This document shows, in pieces, positions 35,734 to 41,587 of a stretch of 64,000 nucleotides of DNA. Source of the stretch: Caldimonas thermodepolymerans (GTDB taxonomy: Bacteria; Pseudomonadota; Gammaproteobacteria; Burkholderiales; Burkholderiaceae_C); contig NZ_CP064338.1 of the NCBI RefSeq assembly GCF_015476235.1, forward strand, positions 3,658,001-3,722,000, read 5' to 3'. A program made the translations under genes and the position numbers. Every line of letters starts with the position of its first letter. The first letter of the stretch is position 1. The notes beneath the pieces are model-generated. The model was not told where the DNA came from. It worked only from the letters and a program-made list of their open reading frames with translations, and made no database searches.

Positions 35734-37140
35734 TCAGACGCCGCGCCGCCGCAAGGCCGCCCGCAGGGCCTTGGCAAAGCGCGGGTCGCTGACCGCACCC
35801 ACGTTGAAGCGCGACCAGCGGCACGCCGCCGACGCATCGACGCAGAAGATGCGCCCCGGCGCCAGCACGATGCGCTGGGGCAGCACCTCCTTGGCGAACT
35901 CCAGCGTGTCGGGCACGCCGGGCAGCGCGACCCACAGGTACAGCGACGGCGCGCTGCGCGCGAACACCTCCGCCCCCAGCCCGTCGAACAGGCGCAACGC
36001 CTGCTCCATCGCCTGCGCCAGCCGGTCGCGCAGGCGCTTGAGGTGCCGCTGGTAGTGGCCCTCGCTGAGGATCACGTCGACGGTGCGCTCGCAGTACTCC
36101 GAGCTGCCGACGTGGATCAGCGCCTTCAGGTCCGCGAGGTCGCTGGCGAGATCGGCGCTGGAGGCGATGAAGCCCACGCGCAGCGCCGCCGAGAACGACT
36201 TCGAGAAGCTGCCGATGTAGATCGTGCGCTCCAGCTGGTCCAGCGCCGACAGCCGCGGCGCCGAGGTCGGCGCGAAGTCGGCCAGCGGGTCGTTCTCGAC
36301 GATGCGCAGGTCGTATCTCTGCGCCAGCTGCAGCACCTTGAACGCCTTGGCCGCCGACAGCGCCGAGCCGGTCGGGTTGTGCGCGATCGACTGCGTGAAG
36401 AACAGCCGCGGCCGGTGGAGCTGCAGGCATTGCTCCAGCGCCGCGAGGTCCGGCCCGTCGGGCTGCCGCGGCACGCCGACGATGCGTGCGCCGGCGAGCT
36501 TGAGCTTGCCGAACAGCGGGTAGTAGCCGGGGTCGTCGACCAGCACCGTGCCGCCCGGCGGCACGAAGTAGCGCACCACCATGTCCATCGCCTCGTTGGC
36601 GCCGTGCGTCAGCACGATCTGGCGCGGCTCGGCGCCGATGCCGAAGTCGGCCAGCTTGCGCACCAGGTGCTCGCGCAGCGGCCGGTAGCCGAAGCGGCTG
36701 CCGTAGCGGAACAACGCGCCCAGCCCGGTACGCACCACCTTGTGGTGGTAGCGGTCCAGCCGCGCCTCGGCGAGCCACTCCACCGGCGGGAAGCCGTCGC
36801 CGACCGCGAAGGTGCCCGGCTCGGTCTTGAGCTGCTCGCGCATCATCCAGACGATGTCCATCGCCCGGTCCAGCGAGCCGGCGTCGTCGTCTTCCGGCGG
36901 CCGGCCCGCCGCCTGCTCGCGCACGTAGTAGCCCGAGCCGCGGCGCGGCTCGACCAGCCCTTGCGCCACCAGCCACTCGAACGAGGCGACCACGGTGTTC
37001 TTCGCGTAGCCGTGCAGCTGCGCCAGCTCGCGCAGCGAGGGCAGCTTGTCGCCGGGGCGGTACGCGCCTTCGCGGATCTGCCGCTCGAGCGACCGGGCCA
37101 GCGTCGCGGCGAGCGTGGGTCGGGTTCGGGGAGCGCTCAT
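35734..37140 (-). CDS. MocR/PdxR-type GntR regulator with aminotransferase-like domain
   Basis: The 468-residue protein joins a GntR winged helix (~8-75; YRPGDKLPSLRELAQLHG, NTVVASFEWLVAQGL) to a fold-type I aminotransferase domain (~110-460). The PLP-binding Lys is Lys314 in SFSKSFSAALRVGF, with HNPTG and VDDPGYYPLF also present. MocR proteins sense PLP or amino compounds and act as activator/repressors. It is divergent from the TRAP/HMG-CoA reductase operon, with a large inverted repeat between them. It is the obvious candidate regulator. Confidence 0.92.
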   Translation of the reverse strand: MSAPRTRPTLAATLARSLERQIREGAYRPGDKLPSLRELAQLHGYAKNTVVASFEWLVAQGLVEPRRGSGYYVREQAAGRPPEDDDAGSLDRAMDIVWMMREQLKTEPGTFAVGDGFPPVEWLAEARLDRYHHKVVRTGLGALFRYGSRFGYRPLREHLVRKLADFGIGAEPRQIVLTHGANEAMDMVVRYFVPPGGTVLVDDPGYYPLFGKLKLAGARIVGVPRQPDGPDLAALEQCLQLHRPRLFFTQSIAHNPTGSALSAAKAFKVLQLAQRYDLRIVENDPLADFAPTSAPRLSALDQLERTIYIGSFSKSFSAALRVGFIASSADLASDLADLKALIHVGSSEYCERTVDVILSEGHYQRHLKRLRDRLAQAMEQALRLFDGLGAEVFARSAPSLYLWVALPGVPDTLEFAKEVLPQRIVLAPGRIFCVDASAACRWSRFNVGAVSDPRFAKALRAALRRRGV

Positions 37141-37224
37141 GCGTGCAGGATGGGTGGTGCGGCCCGGAAATGCTAGGGCAGGATGGCACTGTCGCAGTCA
37201 CTGGACCCCCGCTGTCCCGCAAAA

Positions 37225-37248
37225 CTGTACCCATCATGACTGGTACAG
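37225..37248. promoter_or_regulatory. Inverted repeat between MocR regulator and TRAP operon
   Basis: CTGTACC-N10-GGTACAG has perfect 7-bp arms, and a related CTACAG follows at 37253. It lies 65 bases upstream of the dctP-like ATG and 85 bases from the MocR start. A dimeric GntR-type protein could bind it. Confidence 0.5.
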
Positions 37249-37312
37249 CGACCTACAGTGGGACGTGCAGCGGTCCGTCCACTGCCTCGACAAGAACGGA
37301 AGGAGACAAACC

Positions 37313-38359
37313 ATGAGCGACATGAACCTCCGGCGTCGCCGCCTGATCCAGTCCGCCGTGGCCGGCGCGGCTGCGGCCGCCGCGGCCGCCCCCCGCGTGG
37401 CCTCGGCCCAGTCCACCGTGACCTGGCGCATGCAGGCACTGTGGGACGGCGGCACCACCCCGCAGAAGTTCGAAGAGCTGTTCGTCAAGCGCGTGTCCGA
37501 CCTCACCGGCGGGCGCTTCCGCATCAACCTGTTCGCGGCCGGCCAGATCGTGCCCGCGGCGCAGGCCTTCGACGCAGTGCGCGGCGGCGCCTTCGAGATG
37601 ATGAAGACCTTCGACGGCTACGAGGCCGGCAAGATCCCGGCGCTGGCCTTCACCAGCACGGTGCCGTTCGGCTTCAACGAAAGCGACGAGTACGAGGCCT
37701 GGTTCTACGAGAAGGGCGGCCTGGAGATGGCCCGCCAGGCGTACGCACCGGCCGGGCTGCACTACATCGCGCCCACCGTGTACGGCCAGGAGCCGCTGCA
37801 CTCCAAGGTGCCGATCCGCCGCATCGCCGACCTGGCCGGCAAGAAGGGCCGCTTCGTCGGGCTGGCCTCGACCGTGATGGGCGCCTTCGGCGTCGCGGTC
37901 ACGCCGCTGCCCACCGGCGAGGTGTACTCCGCGCTCGACAAGGGCGTGGTCGACATGGCCGACCGCGGCGACCTGACCGCCAACTACGAGGCCGGCCTCG
38001 CGGAAGTGGCCAAATACGTGATCCTGCCCGGCTTCCACCAGCCCACCACCGCGACCTGCTACGTCGCCAACCGCGGCGCCTGGGACAAGCTGCCGGCCGA
38101 GTTCAAGGCCGCGCTGGAGGTCGCCGCGCGCGAGGTCTCCTCGGCGCTGCGCCAGCGCATCCTGGTCAACGACGCGGCCGTGCTCGCCAAGTACCAGGCC
38201 AAGGGCTGCGAGATCATCCGCTTCTCCGCCGCCGACCTGGCCGCCGCCCGGCCCAAGGCCATCGAGGCCTGGCGTGCCGCGACCAAGGGCGATGCGCTGG
38301 CGACCAGGATGCTCGACAGCCAGATCGCCTTCATGAAGGAACTGGGCCTGATGAGCTGA
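37313..38359 (+). CDS. TRAP transporter substrate-binding protein (DctP family)
   Basis: The 348-residue periplasmic binding protein has a twin-arginine-like leader (NLRRRRLIQSAVAG followed by poly-Ala, cleavage near ASAQS). The DctP fold follows: VTWRMQALWDGGTTPQKFEELF, GGAFEMMKTFDGYEAGKIPA and LAGKKGRFVGLASTVMGAFGV. The start at 37313 has AAGGAG upstream. It delivers an organic acid to the DctQM permease encoded next. The ligand is inferred to be mevalonate or a related hydroxy acid because the operon ends in HMG-CoA reductase. Confidence 0.93.
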   Translation: MSDMNLRRRRLIQSAVAGAAAAAAAAPRVASAQSTVTWRMQALWDGGTTPQKFEELFVKRVSDLTGGRFRINLFAAGQIVPAAQAFDAVRGGAFEMMKTFDGYEAGKIPALAFTSTVPFGFNESDEYEAWFYEKGGLEMARQAYAPAGLHYIAPTVYGQEPLHSKVPIRRIADLAGKKGRFVGLASTVMGAFGVAVTPLPTGEVYSALDKGVVDMADRGDLTANYEAGLAEVAKYVILPGFHQPTTATCYVANRGAWDKLPAEFKAALEVAAREVSSALRQRILVNDAAVLAKYQAKGCEIIRFSAADLAAARPKAIEAWRAATKGDALATRMLDSQIAFMKELGLMS

Positions 38360-38422
38360 CGGCCCTGCCGCCGCACCGCGCCCGGCGCGCGGTGCGACGC
38401 CCTGCCCTGGAGGAGCTTGCCC

Positions 38423-38971
38423 GTGCCTGCCTGGCTGCGCGTGCCGGTGGCCGCCATCACCGGCCTGAACCGCACGCTGTTTCGCATCACCGTGTGGCTG
38501 ATGGCCGTCGTGGTGCCGGTGATGGTGTACGAAGTGGTGTGCCGCTACCTGTTCAACGCGCCCACCGTATGGGGGATGGAACTGGCGGTGCTGCTGTTCG
38601 GCCCCTACTTCCTGCTCGGGGGCCCCTACCTGCTGCACCTGCGCGGCCATGTCGCGCTGGACCTCGTCCACGCGCGGCTCAGCCCCAGGTGGCGGCGCCG
38701 CGTGGACCTGCTCAACTACCCGGTGATCGTCGCCTTCTGCGCCATCCTGCTGTACTACAGCGTGCCGCCGGCGCTCAACGCCTTCGCCTACCGCGAGACC
38801 AGCTTCTCGGCCTGGAACCCGCCGATCTGGCCGTTCAAGGCCGCGGTGCCGGTGGCCCTGCTGCTGATGCTGCTGCAGGCGCTCGCGGAGTTCGTGCGCA
38901 CCTGCTTCGAGGCGCCTGAAGCCGCAAGGCAGGCCCAGCCCGTGGCCGACGCGCAGGAGGTGCGGCCATGA
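38423..38971 (+). CDS. TRAP transporter small permease (DctQ family)
   Basis: The 182-residue membrane protein has four hydrophobic helices (FRITVWLMAVVVPVMVYEVV..., LLFGPYFLLGGPYLLHL..., YPVIVAFCAILLYYSV..., AVPVALLLMLLQALAEF) as in DctQ. GTG at 38423 is preferred, with GGAGGAG 7 bases upstream. The in-frame TTG at 38417 is too close to that site. It overlaps dctM by 4 bases (ATGA). Confidence 0.9.
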   Translation: MPAWLRVPVAAITGLNRTLFRITVWLMAVVVPVMVYEVVCRYLFNAPTVWGMELAVLLFGPYFLLGGPYLLHLRGHVALDLVHARLSPRWRRRVDLLNYPVIVAFCAILLYYSVPPALNAFAYRETSFSAWNPPIWPFKAAVPVALLLMLLQALAEFVRTCFEAPEAARQAQPVADAQEVRP

Positions 38972-40284
38972 CGCCCAACACCATCCTGCTGCTGATGTTC
39001 GGCGGCCTGACGCTGTTCATGCTCACCGGCCTGCCGATCGCCTTCGTGCTGGGCGGGCTGTCGCTGCTGTTCACCGTCACGCTGTGGGAGCCCAACGCGG
39101 TCGTCGTGCTGGTGCTGCAGATCTTCGACACGATGCGCTCGGAGGCGCTGCTGGCCATCCCGCTGTTCATCCTGATGGCCTGCATCCTGCAGCGCTCCGG
39201 CGTGATCGAGTCGCTGTACCGCGCGATGGAGCTGTGGTTCGGCCGCCTGCGCGGCGGGCTCGCGATCGGCACCGTGGTGATCTGCGTCGTGATGGCGGCG
39301 ATGACCGGCGTGGTCGGCGCGGCGGTGACCGCGATGGGCATCCTCGCGCTGCCCGAGATGCTGCGCCGCGGCTACGAGCCGAAGCTGGCGCTGGGCACGA
39401 TCTGCGCGTCGGGGACGCTGGGCATCCTGATCCCGCCCTCGGTGCTGACCATCGTGTACGCGGTGACGGCGCAGATCTCGATCGGCCAGATGCTGATCGC
39501 CGGCATCGTGCCGGGCCTGCTGCTCGCGTCGCTGTACGTCCTCTACATCCTGGTCGCCGGCTGGCTCAAGCCCGAGTGGGTGCCGCTCGACCCGCATGCG
39601 CAGCGCGTGCCGCTGCGCGACAAGCTGGTCGCGCTCAAGGCGCTGGTCGCGCCGGCCTTCCTGATCGTGCTGATCCTTGGCTCGATCTTCTTCGGCGTGG
39701 CCACGCCCACCGAGTCGGCCGCGGTCGGCGTGGTCGGCGCGATGGTGCCGGCGCTGCTCGCGCGCAAACTGGACCTGGCAATGCTGCGCGAGGCCGGCAC
39801 CGACGCGCTGAAGGCCACCGCGATGATCCTGTGGATCACCATCGGCGCGAAGGCCTACGTGGCGATCTTCACCGGCCTGGGCGGCGCCGACACGCTGCTG
39901 GAGTTCATCCGCACGCTGGACGTCGACCGCTGGCTGATCCTGGCCGCGATGATGCTGCTGCTGGTGTTCCTCGGCACGGTGCTCGACGAGCTCGGGATCA
40001 TCCTGCTGACCGTGCCGGTGTTCCTGCCGATCGTGCGCGCGCTGGGCTTCGACGAGCTGTGGTTCGGCGTGCTGTTCGCCGTGACGATCCAGATGGGCTA
40101 CATCAGCCCGCCCTTCGGCTACACGCTGTTCTACGTCAAGGCGACCCTGCCGAAGCACATCGGCATGGGCGCCGTCTACCGCGGCATCGTGCCCTTCTTC
40201 GTGCTGCAGGCGGCGGGCCTGCTGATCTGCGCCGCCTTCCCCGACCTGGTCACCTTCCTGCCGCGCCTGATGATCAACCGTTGA
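38968..40284 (+). CDS. TRAP transporter large permease (DctM family)
   Basis: The 438-residue protein has about 12 hydrophobic helices and typical DctM segments: FGGLTLFMLTGLPIAFVLG, LLAIPLFILMACIL, GILIPPSVLTIVYAVTAQIS and QMGYISPPFGYTLFYVK. It forms the cation-coupled channel with the DctQ protein. It overlaps dctQ by 4 bases, and the HMG-CoA reductase gene starts 19 bases after its stop. This tight spacing makes a single transcript very likely. Confidence 0.94.
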   Translation: MTPNTILLLMFGGLTLFMLTGLPIAFVLGGLSLLFTVTLWEPNAVVVLVLQIFDTMRSEALLAIPLFILMACILQRSGVIESLYRAMELWFGRLRGGLAIGTVVICVVMAAMTGVVGAAVTAMGILALPEMLRRGYEPKLALGTICASGTLGILIPPSVLTIVYAVTAQISIGQMLIAGIVPGLLLASLYVLYILVAGWLKPEWVPLDPHAQRVPLRDKLVALKALVAPAFLIVLILGSIFFGVATPTESAAVGVVGAMVPALLARKLDLAMLREAGTDALKATAMILWITIGAKAYVAIFTGLGGADTLLEFIRTLDVDRWLILAAMMLLLVFLGTVLDELGIILLTVPVFLPIVRALGFDELWFGVLFAVTIQMGYISPPFGYTLFYVKATLPKHIGMGAVYRGIVPFFVLQAAGLLICAAFPDLVTFLPRLMINR

Positions 40285-40303
40285 CGCCTTCGGAGCCTGC
40301 CCC

Positions 40304-41587
40304 ATGAACCACCCCGGGACCACCAGCCGCATCGCCGGCTTCCACAAGCTCGACCGCACCGGCCGCATCGACGCCGTCGCGCGCTTTGCCGGGCTCGACG
40401 TGCAGGAGCGCTCGCACCTGGAGAACACCGGCAACCTGCCCGCCGACGTGGCCGACCACATGATCGAGAACGTGATCGGCACGATGAACATCCCGATCGG
40501 CATCGCGACCAACATGCGCATCGACGGCCGCGACCGGCTGATCCCGATGGCCACCGAGGAGTCCTCGGTGGTGGCGGCGGTCTGCAACGCCGCGCGCCAG
40601 TGCTACGACAACGGCGGCTTCACGACCTCGATGTCGGGCACCGAGATGATCGCGCAGGTGCAGCTGACCGACCTGCCCGACCCGCACCACGCGCGGCTGC
40701 GCATCCTCGAGCGCGAGGCCGAGGTCCGCGACCTGTGCAACGCCTGCGATCCCGTGCTGGTGCGCCTGGGCGGGGGCTTCCGCGAGCTGCAGGCGCGCGT
40801 GCTCGACACCCCGGGCGGGGCGATGGTGATCGTGCACCTGATCGTCGACACGCGCGACGCGATGGGCGCCAACGCGGTCAACACGATGGCCGAGACGCTG
40901 GCGCCGCACCTCGCGCAGTGGACCGGCGCGACGAGCCGGCTGCGCATCCTGTCCAACCTGGCCGACCGGCGCGTGGCACGCGCGCGCTGCGTCTGGAAGG
41001 TGGATGCGATCGGCGGCCCCGAGGTGCGCGACGGCATCCTCGCGGCCTACCACTTCGCCGCGGCCGACCCGTACCGCGCCGCCACGCACAACAAGGGCAT
41101 CATGAACGGCGTGAGCGCGGTGGTGCTGGCCACCGGCAACGACACCCGCGCGGTGGAGGCGGGCGCGCACGCCTACGCGGCGCGCCACGGCCACTACGGC
41201 AGCCTCAGCATGTGGGAGGCCACGCCCGAAGGCGACCTGGCCGGCTCGCTGGAGCTGCCGCTCGCGGTGGGCCTGGTCGGCGGGGCCACGCGCGTGCACC
41301 CGACCGCTCAGCTGGCGCTGAAGATCCTCGGCGTCGGCACGGCCGAGGAGCTGGCGCGCGTGATCGCCGCGGTGGGACTGGCGCAGAACTTCTCGGCGCT
41401 CAAGGCACTCGCGACCACCGGCATCCAGAAGGGCCACATGGCACTGCACGCGCGCAACATCGCGATCATGGCCGGGGCGACCGGCGAGGAGGTCGAGGCG
41501 GTGGCGCGCGCGCTGGTGGCGCAGGGCCGCGTGCGCATGGACGTGGCCGAGGCGGAGCTGCAGGCGCTCAGGCGCGGCCGCGGCTGA
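40304..41587 (+). CDS. mvaA: Class II (degradative) hydroxymethylglutaryl-CoA reductase
   Basis: The 427-residue enzyme interconverts mevalonate + CoA and HMG-CoA using NAD(P). Length and motifs match the Pseudomonas mevalonii class II enzyme. Catalytic Glu85/86 lies in ATEESSVVAA, Lys264 in THNKGIMNG, Asp280 in ATGNDTRAVEAG and His378 in KGHMALHARN. TMNIPIGIATN and DAMGANAVNTMAE are also present. Betaproteobacteria make isoprenoids by the MEP route, so the likely direction is mevalonate oxidation. The HMG-CoA lyase needed next is not in this window. It is the last gene of the TRAP operon. Confidence 0.95.
   Translation: MNHPGTTSRIAGFHKLDRTGRIDAVARFAGLDVQERSHLENTGNLPADVADHMIENVIGTMNIPIGIATNMRIDGRDRLIPMATEESSVVAAVCNAARQCYDNGGFTTSMSGTEMIAQVQLTDLPDPHHARLRILEREAEVRDLCNACDPVLVRLGGGFRELQARVLDTPGGAMVIVHLIVDTRDAMGANAVNTMAETLAPHLAQWTGATSRLRILSNLADRRVARARCVWKVDAIGGPEVRDGILAAYHFAAADPYRAATHNKGIMNGVSAVVLATGNDTRAVEAGAHAYAARHGHYGSLSMWEATPEGDLAGSLELPLAVGLVGGATRVHPTAQLALKILGVGTAEELARVIAAVGLAQNFSALKALATTGIQKGHMALHARNIAIMAGATGEEVEAVARALVAQGRVRMDVAEAELQALRRGRG

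Follow-up and report, generated by a model that had tools for sequence, protein, structure and literature searches.

Pseudomonas mevalonii grows on mevalonate by running 3-hydroxy-3-methylglutaryl-CoA (HMG-CoA) reductase (HMGR) in reverse, according to PMC13412983, and PMC12292504 describes an HMGR from Ruegeria pomeroyi that oxidises mevalonate with NAD and has Asp154 as its cofactor residue. Here we analyse a stretch of 64,000 nucleotides from Caldimonas thermodepolymerans (contig NZ_CP064338.1, positions 3,658,001 to 3,722,000 of the forward strand; hereafter the window), in which the genes for a tripartite ATP-independent periplasmic (TRAP) transporter, DctPQM, and for a class II HMGR diverge from the gene for a MocR-type regulator (Table 1). 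It is very probable that this block is a mevalonate-scavenging operon, serving import, oxidation to HMG-CoA and cleavage by a lyase under the control of MocR, a function that can be assigned with high confidence from its context.

The P. mevalonii enzyme belongs to the same reductase family as the window HMGR but to another HMGR clade. In the P. mevalonii operon the gene for HMG-CoA lyase adjoins that for HMGR, and neither a TRAP importer nor a MocR regulator is known to form part of it, whereas in C. thermodepolymerans the lyase gene lies far from the block, at 638 kb. Comparison by eye shows that the R. pomeroyi enzyme (sequence of PDB 9v7y) is encoded in one of the TRAP loci surveyed below (L071), where D137, after addition of 17 upstream codons that were also read by eye, takes position 154 and may be compared with the Asp154 described in PMC12292504. 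This locus has the arrangement MocR/HMGR-DctPQM and a DctP that is 63–64% identical to that of the window, but its HMGR is of the other clade (56%) and its gene order is reversed; the main text of PMC12292504 mentions no transporter or operon. In the MocR/HMGR-TctB-TctA operons (the Variovorax-like L023, L027, L160 and others) the nearest MocRs are 69–79% identical to that of the window and the operator is the same, but the transporter is a tripartite tricarboxylate transporter (TTT) rather than TRAP and the HMGR is only 54–56% identical.

In searches of the open-access literature, no paper came up that describes TRAP or TTT systems carrying mevalonate, or a MocR controlling HMGR, which is weak evidence given that subscription papers fall mostly outside this scope. 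Neither PMC5320631 on MocR regulons (main text) nor PMC4944035 mentions mevalonate or HMG-CoA, and PMC10130141 on R. pomeroyi transporters makes no mention of mevalonate. As far as these sources go, they agree with the original prediction, made from the letters of the window, that a TRAP importer with a MocR regulator is little described. The parts are of known kinds; a TRAP type of importer and a control site for mevalonate are apparently unreported.

Table 1. Features of the MocR/DctPQM/HMGR block, in window coordinates.
Feature	Position	Strand	Evidence or remark
MocR-type regulator	35734-37140	-	GntR DNA-binding domain and aminotransferase-like domain; PLP lysine K314 kept
Extra upstream half-site CTGTCCC	37212-37218	+	Conserved array, alignment of 18 sites
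Candidate MocR operator CTGTACC-N10-GGTACAG	37225-37248		Sole exact copy in the genome; conserved in related loci
Putative -10 box TACAGT of the DctPQM-HMGR promoter	37254-37259	+	Kept in several loci, as CCTACAGT
DctP, TRAP solute-binding protein (proposed to bind mevalonate)	37313-38359	+	Profile match
DctQ, TRAP small permease	38423-38971	+	GTG start; profile match
DctM, TRAP large permease	38968-40284	+	Profile match
HMGR, class II degradative HMG-CoA reductase	40304-41587	+	Profile match, catalytic residues, NADH motif

DctP matched PF03480 at 155 bits (cut-off 23.4), DctQ matched PF04290 at 103 bits (cut-off 28.3) and DctM matched both PF06808 at 277 bits (cut-off 23.8) and TIGR00786 at 321 bits (cut-off 268), which places a binding protein, a small permease and a large permease, all above cut-off, in one operon. 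The regulator combines GntR (PF00392, 54 bits, cut-off 27) with Aminotran_1_2 (PF00155, 100 bits, cut-off 19.7). The four genes from DctP to HMGR (37313–41587, + strand) diverge from MocR across 172 intergenic bases; DctQ and DctM overlap by 4 bases, and gene calls and profile scores bear out the original prediction that a class II HMGR follows DctPQM after 19 bases. From this spacing, a single DctPQM-HMGR transcript is likely. The host genome is a single contig of 3,858,501 bases (completeness 100), and the whole MocR/DctPQM/HMGR block was found again as a unit in relatives; synteny in these relatives and co-occurrence rule out a chance neighbourhood.

The window HMGR scored 460 bits against TIGR00532, the ‘degradative’ model (cut-off 259.95). 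Its residues E86, K264, D280 and H378 align with residues 83, 267, 283 and 381 of the P. mevalonii enzyme, which we take to be the catalytic Glu, Lys, Asp and His, and these positions are invariant across 18 aligned sequences. The match to P. mevalonii HMGR (PDB 1qax) reached 458 bits, and the sequence DPVLVRL at D149 conforms to Dx(V/L)xxxL, the cofactor-helix motif of NADH-type HMGRs according to PMC13370337. Family, residues and relatives together suggest that the window HMGR oxidises mevalonate to HMG-CoA. An anabolic role, making mevalonate for isoprenoids or export, is extremely unlikely and was rejected: archaeal and Chloroflexota class II reductases that share 52–61% identity with the window HMGR are probably biosynthetic, but the cofactor helix is of the NADH type, importer genes precede HMGR, and the complete genome has no match to PF08540 (HMG-CoA synthase) or TIGR00549 (mevalonate kinase), in searches that do match in control genomes, while Dxr of the methylerythritol phosphate (MEP) pathway is present. 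The genome has one PF00368 match. The claim that the host uses the MEP route rather than a full anabolic mevalonate pathway therefore holds for the synthase and the kinase, other downstream enzymes not having been searched for.

The original prediction had noted that the lyase is absent from the window and had proposed a genome search for it. None of the five PF00682 matches in the genome falls in the window, and one of them, at C1:638244-639065, is an HMG-CoA lyase (NF004283, 460 bits, cut-off 246). The lyase gene is preceded, on its own strand, by genes similar to those for a carboxyltransferase subunit, an enoyl-CoA hydratase and a biotin carboxylase subunit, a cluster that would be typical of leucine catabolism. 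Since two pairs of CoA-transferase subunits are also encoded, no step between mevalonate and acetyl-CoA plus acetoacetate lacks a candidate gene. In the proposed route mevalonate, which other organisms make as a building block, would be a food source: DctP would bind it in the periplasm and DctQM would import it, the class II HMGR working in the oxidative direction would convert mevalonate, CoA and 2 NAD+ to HMG-CoA, the lyase of the leucine cluster would cleave this to acetyl-CoA and to acetoacetate, which a CoA-transferase could then activate. The divergent MocR would control the operon through the conserved palindrome CTGTACC-N10-GGTACAG.

A survey of TRAP-mvaA neighbours had also been proposed, and we assembled 112 HMGR loci. 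Besides the window they comprise 10 loci of an order sample (11 of 399 genomes exceeded the family cut-off), 12 of a family sample (50 of 399 genomes gave an HMGR match), 9 plasmid records and 80 loci of a species-genome collection (the best 80 of 587). These loci were picked by likeness to the window HMGR; they are no census and include near-duplicates (L023 and L160 share an identical HMGR). For neighbours, 31 reference proteins served as tblastn queries, and matches were counted up to 6.5 kb from HMGR for transporters and up to 7 kb from it for MocR or lyase. A TRAP of the window family stands beside HMGR in 18 of the 112 loci (the window, L065, L067, L071–L075, L084, L086, L089, L091, L092, L094, L096, L099, L100 and L152), in Burkholderiales, Marinobacter, Halomonas, Thalassospira, Breoghania, Nitratireductor, Ruegeria, Rhizobium and other hosts. 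The TRAP genes precede HMGR in 16 of these, the order being reversed in L071 and L152, and MocR is present in all except L096 and L100 (16/18). The HMGRs of L071 and L152 belong to the other clade (55–56% identity to that of the window), and so HMGR and TRAP have been re-paired while the TRAP family stayed the same.

DctP orthologs, defined by a cut of our own choosing (E ≤1e-90, up to five candidates scored per genome), were found in 5 of the 399 family-sample genomes at 82–100% identity, and these five are exactly the genomes whose HMGR is 75–100% identical to that of the window; the remaining full-length HMGRs of the sample reach 54–58%, and fragments up to 63%. Neither the DctP ortholog nor this type of HMGR was found in the genus mates G518, G607 and G677 or in G413, which shares its genus with G746. 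The exact co-occurrence argues against a TRAP that imports some other small hydroxy or keto monocarboxylate, such as a lactate-like acid, with HMGR as a mere neighbour or side branch, as does the finding that the window TRAP family occurs alongside HMGRs of both clades and alongside HMG-CoA lyase. We regard such a cargo as quite improbable, although structure comparison gives it some standing. An AlphaFold2 model of DctP (14 sequences; mean pLDDT 81, pTM 0.80) has as its nearest solved structures the Thermus lactate protein TTHA0766 (2zzv; TM 0.80 by query length, 34% identity), along with a keto-acid protein from Synechococcus, a protein from Bordetella and TakP (2hzk; TM 0.78 by query length, 26% identity), which binds 2-oxo acids; the known ligands of this group differ from mevalonate and include lactate, 2-oxovalerate and other 2-oxo acids. 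However, all 17 aligned DctPs (from 17 of the 18 TRAP loci, L092 being omitted for its uncertain start) share D101-G102 and D217-R218-G219-D220, and the lactate protein differs at these positions. The fold class, which in the named cases comprises binders of small monocarboxylates, suits mevalonate without proving the ligand. As an indicator of ligand the structure was set aside, because it gives the fold and not the ligand, and it is the genomic context that points to mevalonate as the probable ligand of DctP.

We also consider it very unlikely that the cargo is a relative of mevalonate (mevalonolactone or a conjugate) entering at the same point, or that a variant HMGR acts on an analogue. 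The window HMGR clade does have residues of its own near the active site, lactonase-like genes lie next to HMGR in a Shinella locus (L070), and in Sagittula and Salipiger loci HMGR is accompanied by another TRAP and a short-chain dehydrogenase/reductase (SDR) gene. Against this, the window block lacks both a lactonase and a modifying enzyme, HMGR keeps its catalytic residues and NADH motif unchanged, and the lyase adjacent to HMGRs of the same clade in L067 and L096 points to HMG-CoA as the product.

The candidate operator was first spotted by eye in the window, and the window is therefore no independent test of it; none of 200 shuffles of the window operator region matches as well. Genome-wide, 31 sites match CTGTACC-N10-GGTACAG with at most two mismatches (1 exact, 2 with one mismatch and 28 with two) against 37 for a reversed control pattern, and the copies with one or two mismatches were accordingly dismissed as background. 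An excess of sites with three mismatches in the window (8 sites in total, of which 7 had three mismatches; mean over shuffles 1.31) was likewise discounted as evidence. Across 44 MocR-operon regions, 26 match at least 13 of the 14 operator bases, 18 with a 10-base spacer and 8 with a 12-base spacer; for 25 of them no shuffle in 200 was as good, and for L089 one was. The other 18 regions score 9–12, of which L063, L071 and L073 still beat all shuffles. Within the MocR clade of the window, the N10 form occurs in 18 of 21 tested regions, the exceptions being L081, L083 and L129. Alignment of 18 sites reveals a conserved array of a CTGTCCC-like half-site, 5 bases, the palindrome, 4 bases and, in many of the rows, CCTACAGT, which may be a -10 box. 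The candidate operator precedes TTT and TRAP operons alike, as fits a regulator site, and this conservation argues that MocR may act through it.

The lysine that binds pyridoxal phosphate (PLP) is kept in 47 of 48 HMGR-linked MocRs, the remaining row being gapped. The window regulator and that of L173 both keep it, although the proposed pathway contains no amino compound. A second MocR lineage (L065, L084, L085, L089, L092, L094, L097 and L152) carries the palindrome with the 12-base spacer, mostly near the MocR start codon. The window MocR is 35% identical to its closest paralog in its own genome in the 48-locus alignment and 38% in a separate comparison, and MocRs of the other clade are only 37–45% identical to it. 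As these values barely exceed that of the paralog, the idea that all HMGR-linked MocRs form one ortholog group was dropped; the N10 and N12 lineages are too distant for it.

Several points weigh against a mevalonate-scavenging operon. MocR regulators are usually tied to amino compounds, and one is unexpected for mevalonate. A good operator match is wanting in 18 of the 44 regions. The HMG-CoA lyase is outside the operon, and its adjacency to HMGR is limited to three of the 18 TRAP loci (L067, L096 and L152). The window HMGR clade differs near the active site from the biochemically known clade (residues 85–88 and 279–281 read EESS and GNDT, as against EEPS and GNDW in the P. mevalonii-type clade), so its activity is presumed, and the modelled DctP fold would suit mevalonate no better than lactate or keto acids. 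On the other side, mevalonate uptake and degradation, as originally predicted, gains support from the missing synthase and kinase matches beside Dxr, from a DctP family that tracks HMGR across lineages and from the lyase that joins in three loci. The original prediction thus stands as to the block and its core reading; it missed the operator, a chimeric origin and the other transporters on the same MocR/HMGR core.

In trees built by a careful method over 48 MocR-linked loci, the window HMGR falls among 7 rows that form an all-TRAP clade (support 99/92), and the window MocR falls in a 19-row clade (100/97) of 11 TTT-linked, 6 unassigned and 2 TRAP rows, the last being the window and L072. The window MocR is 90% identical to that of L072, 79% to those of the TTT-linked L023, L160 and L161 and 43–45% to those of L073–L075 and L084; in comparison with these last four loci, the window DctP and HMGR reach 82–85% and 74–79% identity. 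The spacer of the window operator differs from that of the TTT-linked L076 in 1 of 10 bases. Since MocR and operator are kin to the TTT lineage and TRAP-HMGR is kin elsewhere, the regulator of one lineage fronts the cassette of another. We conclude from the trees that the window operon is a recombinant of a TTT-linked MocR and operator with the TRAP-HMGR of a different lineage. Genome G739 matches window positions 35739–41568 continuously at 85% identity, with the upstream flank 11 kb away; among the matches listed (9 genomes), none of the other genus members spans the block.

MocR lies near HMGR in 48 of the 112 loci, all in two Pseudomonadota HMGR clades of a quick tree (23 of 27 rows, support 86, and 25 of 29 rows, support 99), and the same neighbour search found it in 0 of the 56 other tree rows, which are mainly archaeal and Chloroflexota sequences, with some from Bacillota, Rhodobacterales and others. 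TTT genes occur in 18 of the MocR/HMGR loci (TctA 66–77% identical to a Lichenicola reference), with the lyase adjacent in 9; a binding protein of ATP-binding cassette (ABC) type occurs in 4 and a sugar-type ABC system in 1. A distant TctA-like permease was found in three loci, two of them with MocR, and seven MocR-bearing loci have no assigned transporter. We see an even chance that Pseudomonadota possess a widespread mevalonate-scavenging regulon with MocR, operator and HMGR as its core, in which MocR would answer to mevalonate or HMG-CoA, neither offering an amino group for the usual PLP chemistry, and in which TRAP, TTT and ABC importers would be exchanged; the window would then be a natural recombinant in which the TRAP-HMGR of another lineage is driven by a TTT-lineage regulator and operator.

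If true, mevalonate joins the substrates of TRAP transporters, MocR regulators gain a non-amine pathway, and a catabolic route that keeps its types of regulator and enzyme while the importer is exchanged offers a clear case of importer exchange. One binding protein and one 24-base operator are at hand as test objects. Mevalonate is frequently produced by metabolic engineering, for which an importer and a mevalonate-responsive promoter would then serve as tools, and hosts with such operons would consume engineered mevalonate.

Some loci depart from these arrangements. In three Sagittula and Salipiger loci without MocR (L068, L069 and L101), a GntR gene, a TRAP of another kind (DctP unrelated, 27% identical to that of the window) and an SDR gene precede HMGR, a different importer and an extra enzyme that may serve the same or a related substrate. 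On a plasmid of Shinella sp. HZN7 (L070:7974-16774), MocR/HMGR is followed by the sugar-type ABC system and by SMP-30/strictosidine-synthase-like genes, which might serve mevalonolactone hydrolysis. Genes for a branched-chain ABC transporter, a GMC oxidoreductase and an AMP-binding enzyme adjoin MocR/HMGR in L083:330-7031. Branched-chain ABC systems (L077, L079 and L081–L083) were dropped as further mevalonate importers, in view of these two enzymes in L083, the only one of the five annotated. Two HMGR matches, G688:C1:5544530-5545804 and G491:C1:2071593-2072867, contain one in-frame stop each and could be decayed copies or sequencing errors. Genome G138 has two degradative HMGR loci, L028 and L031, with MocR and TTT genes beside L031 only.

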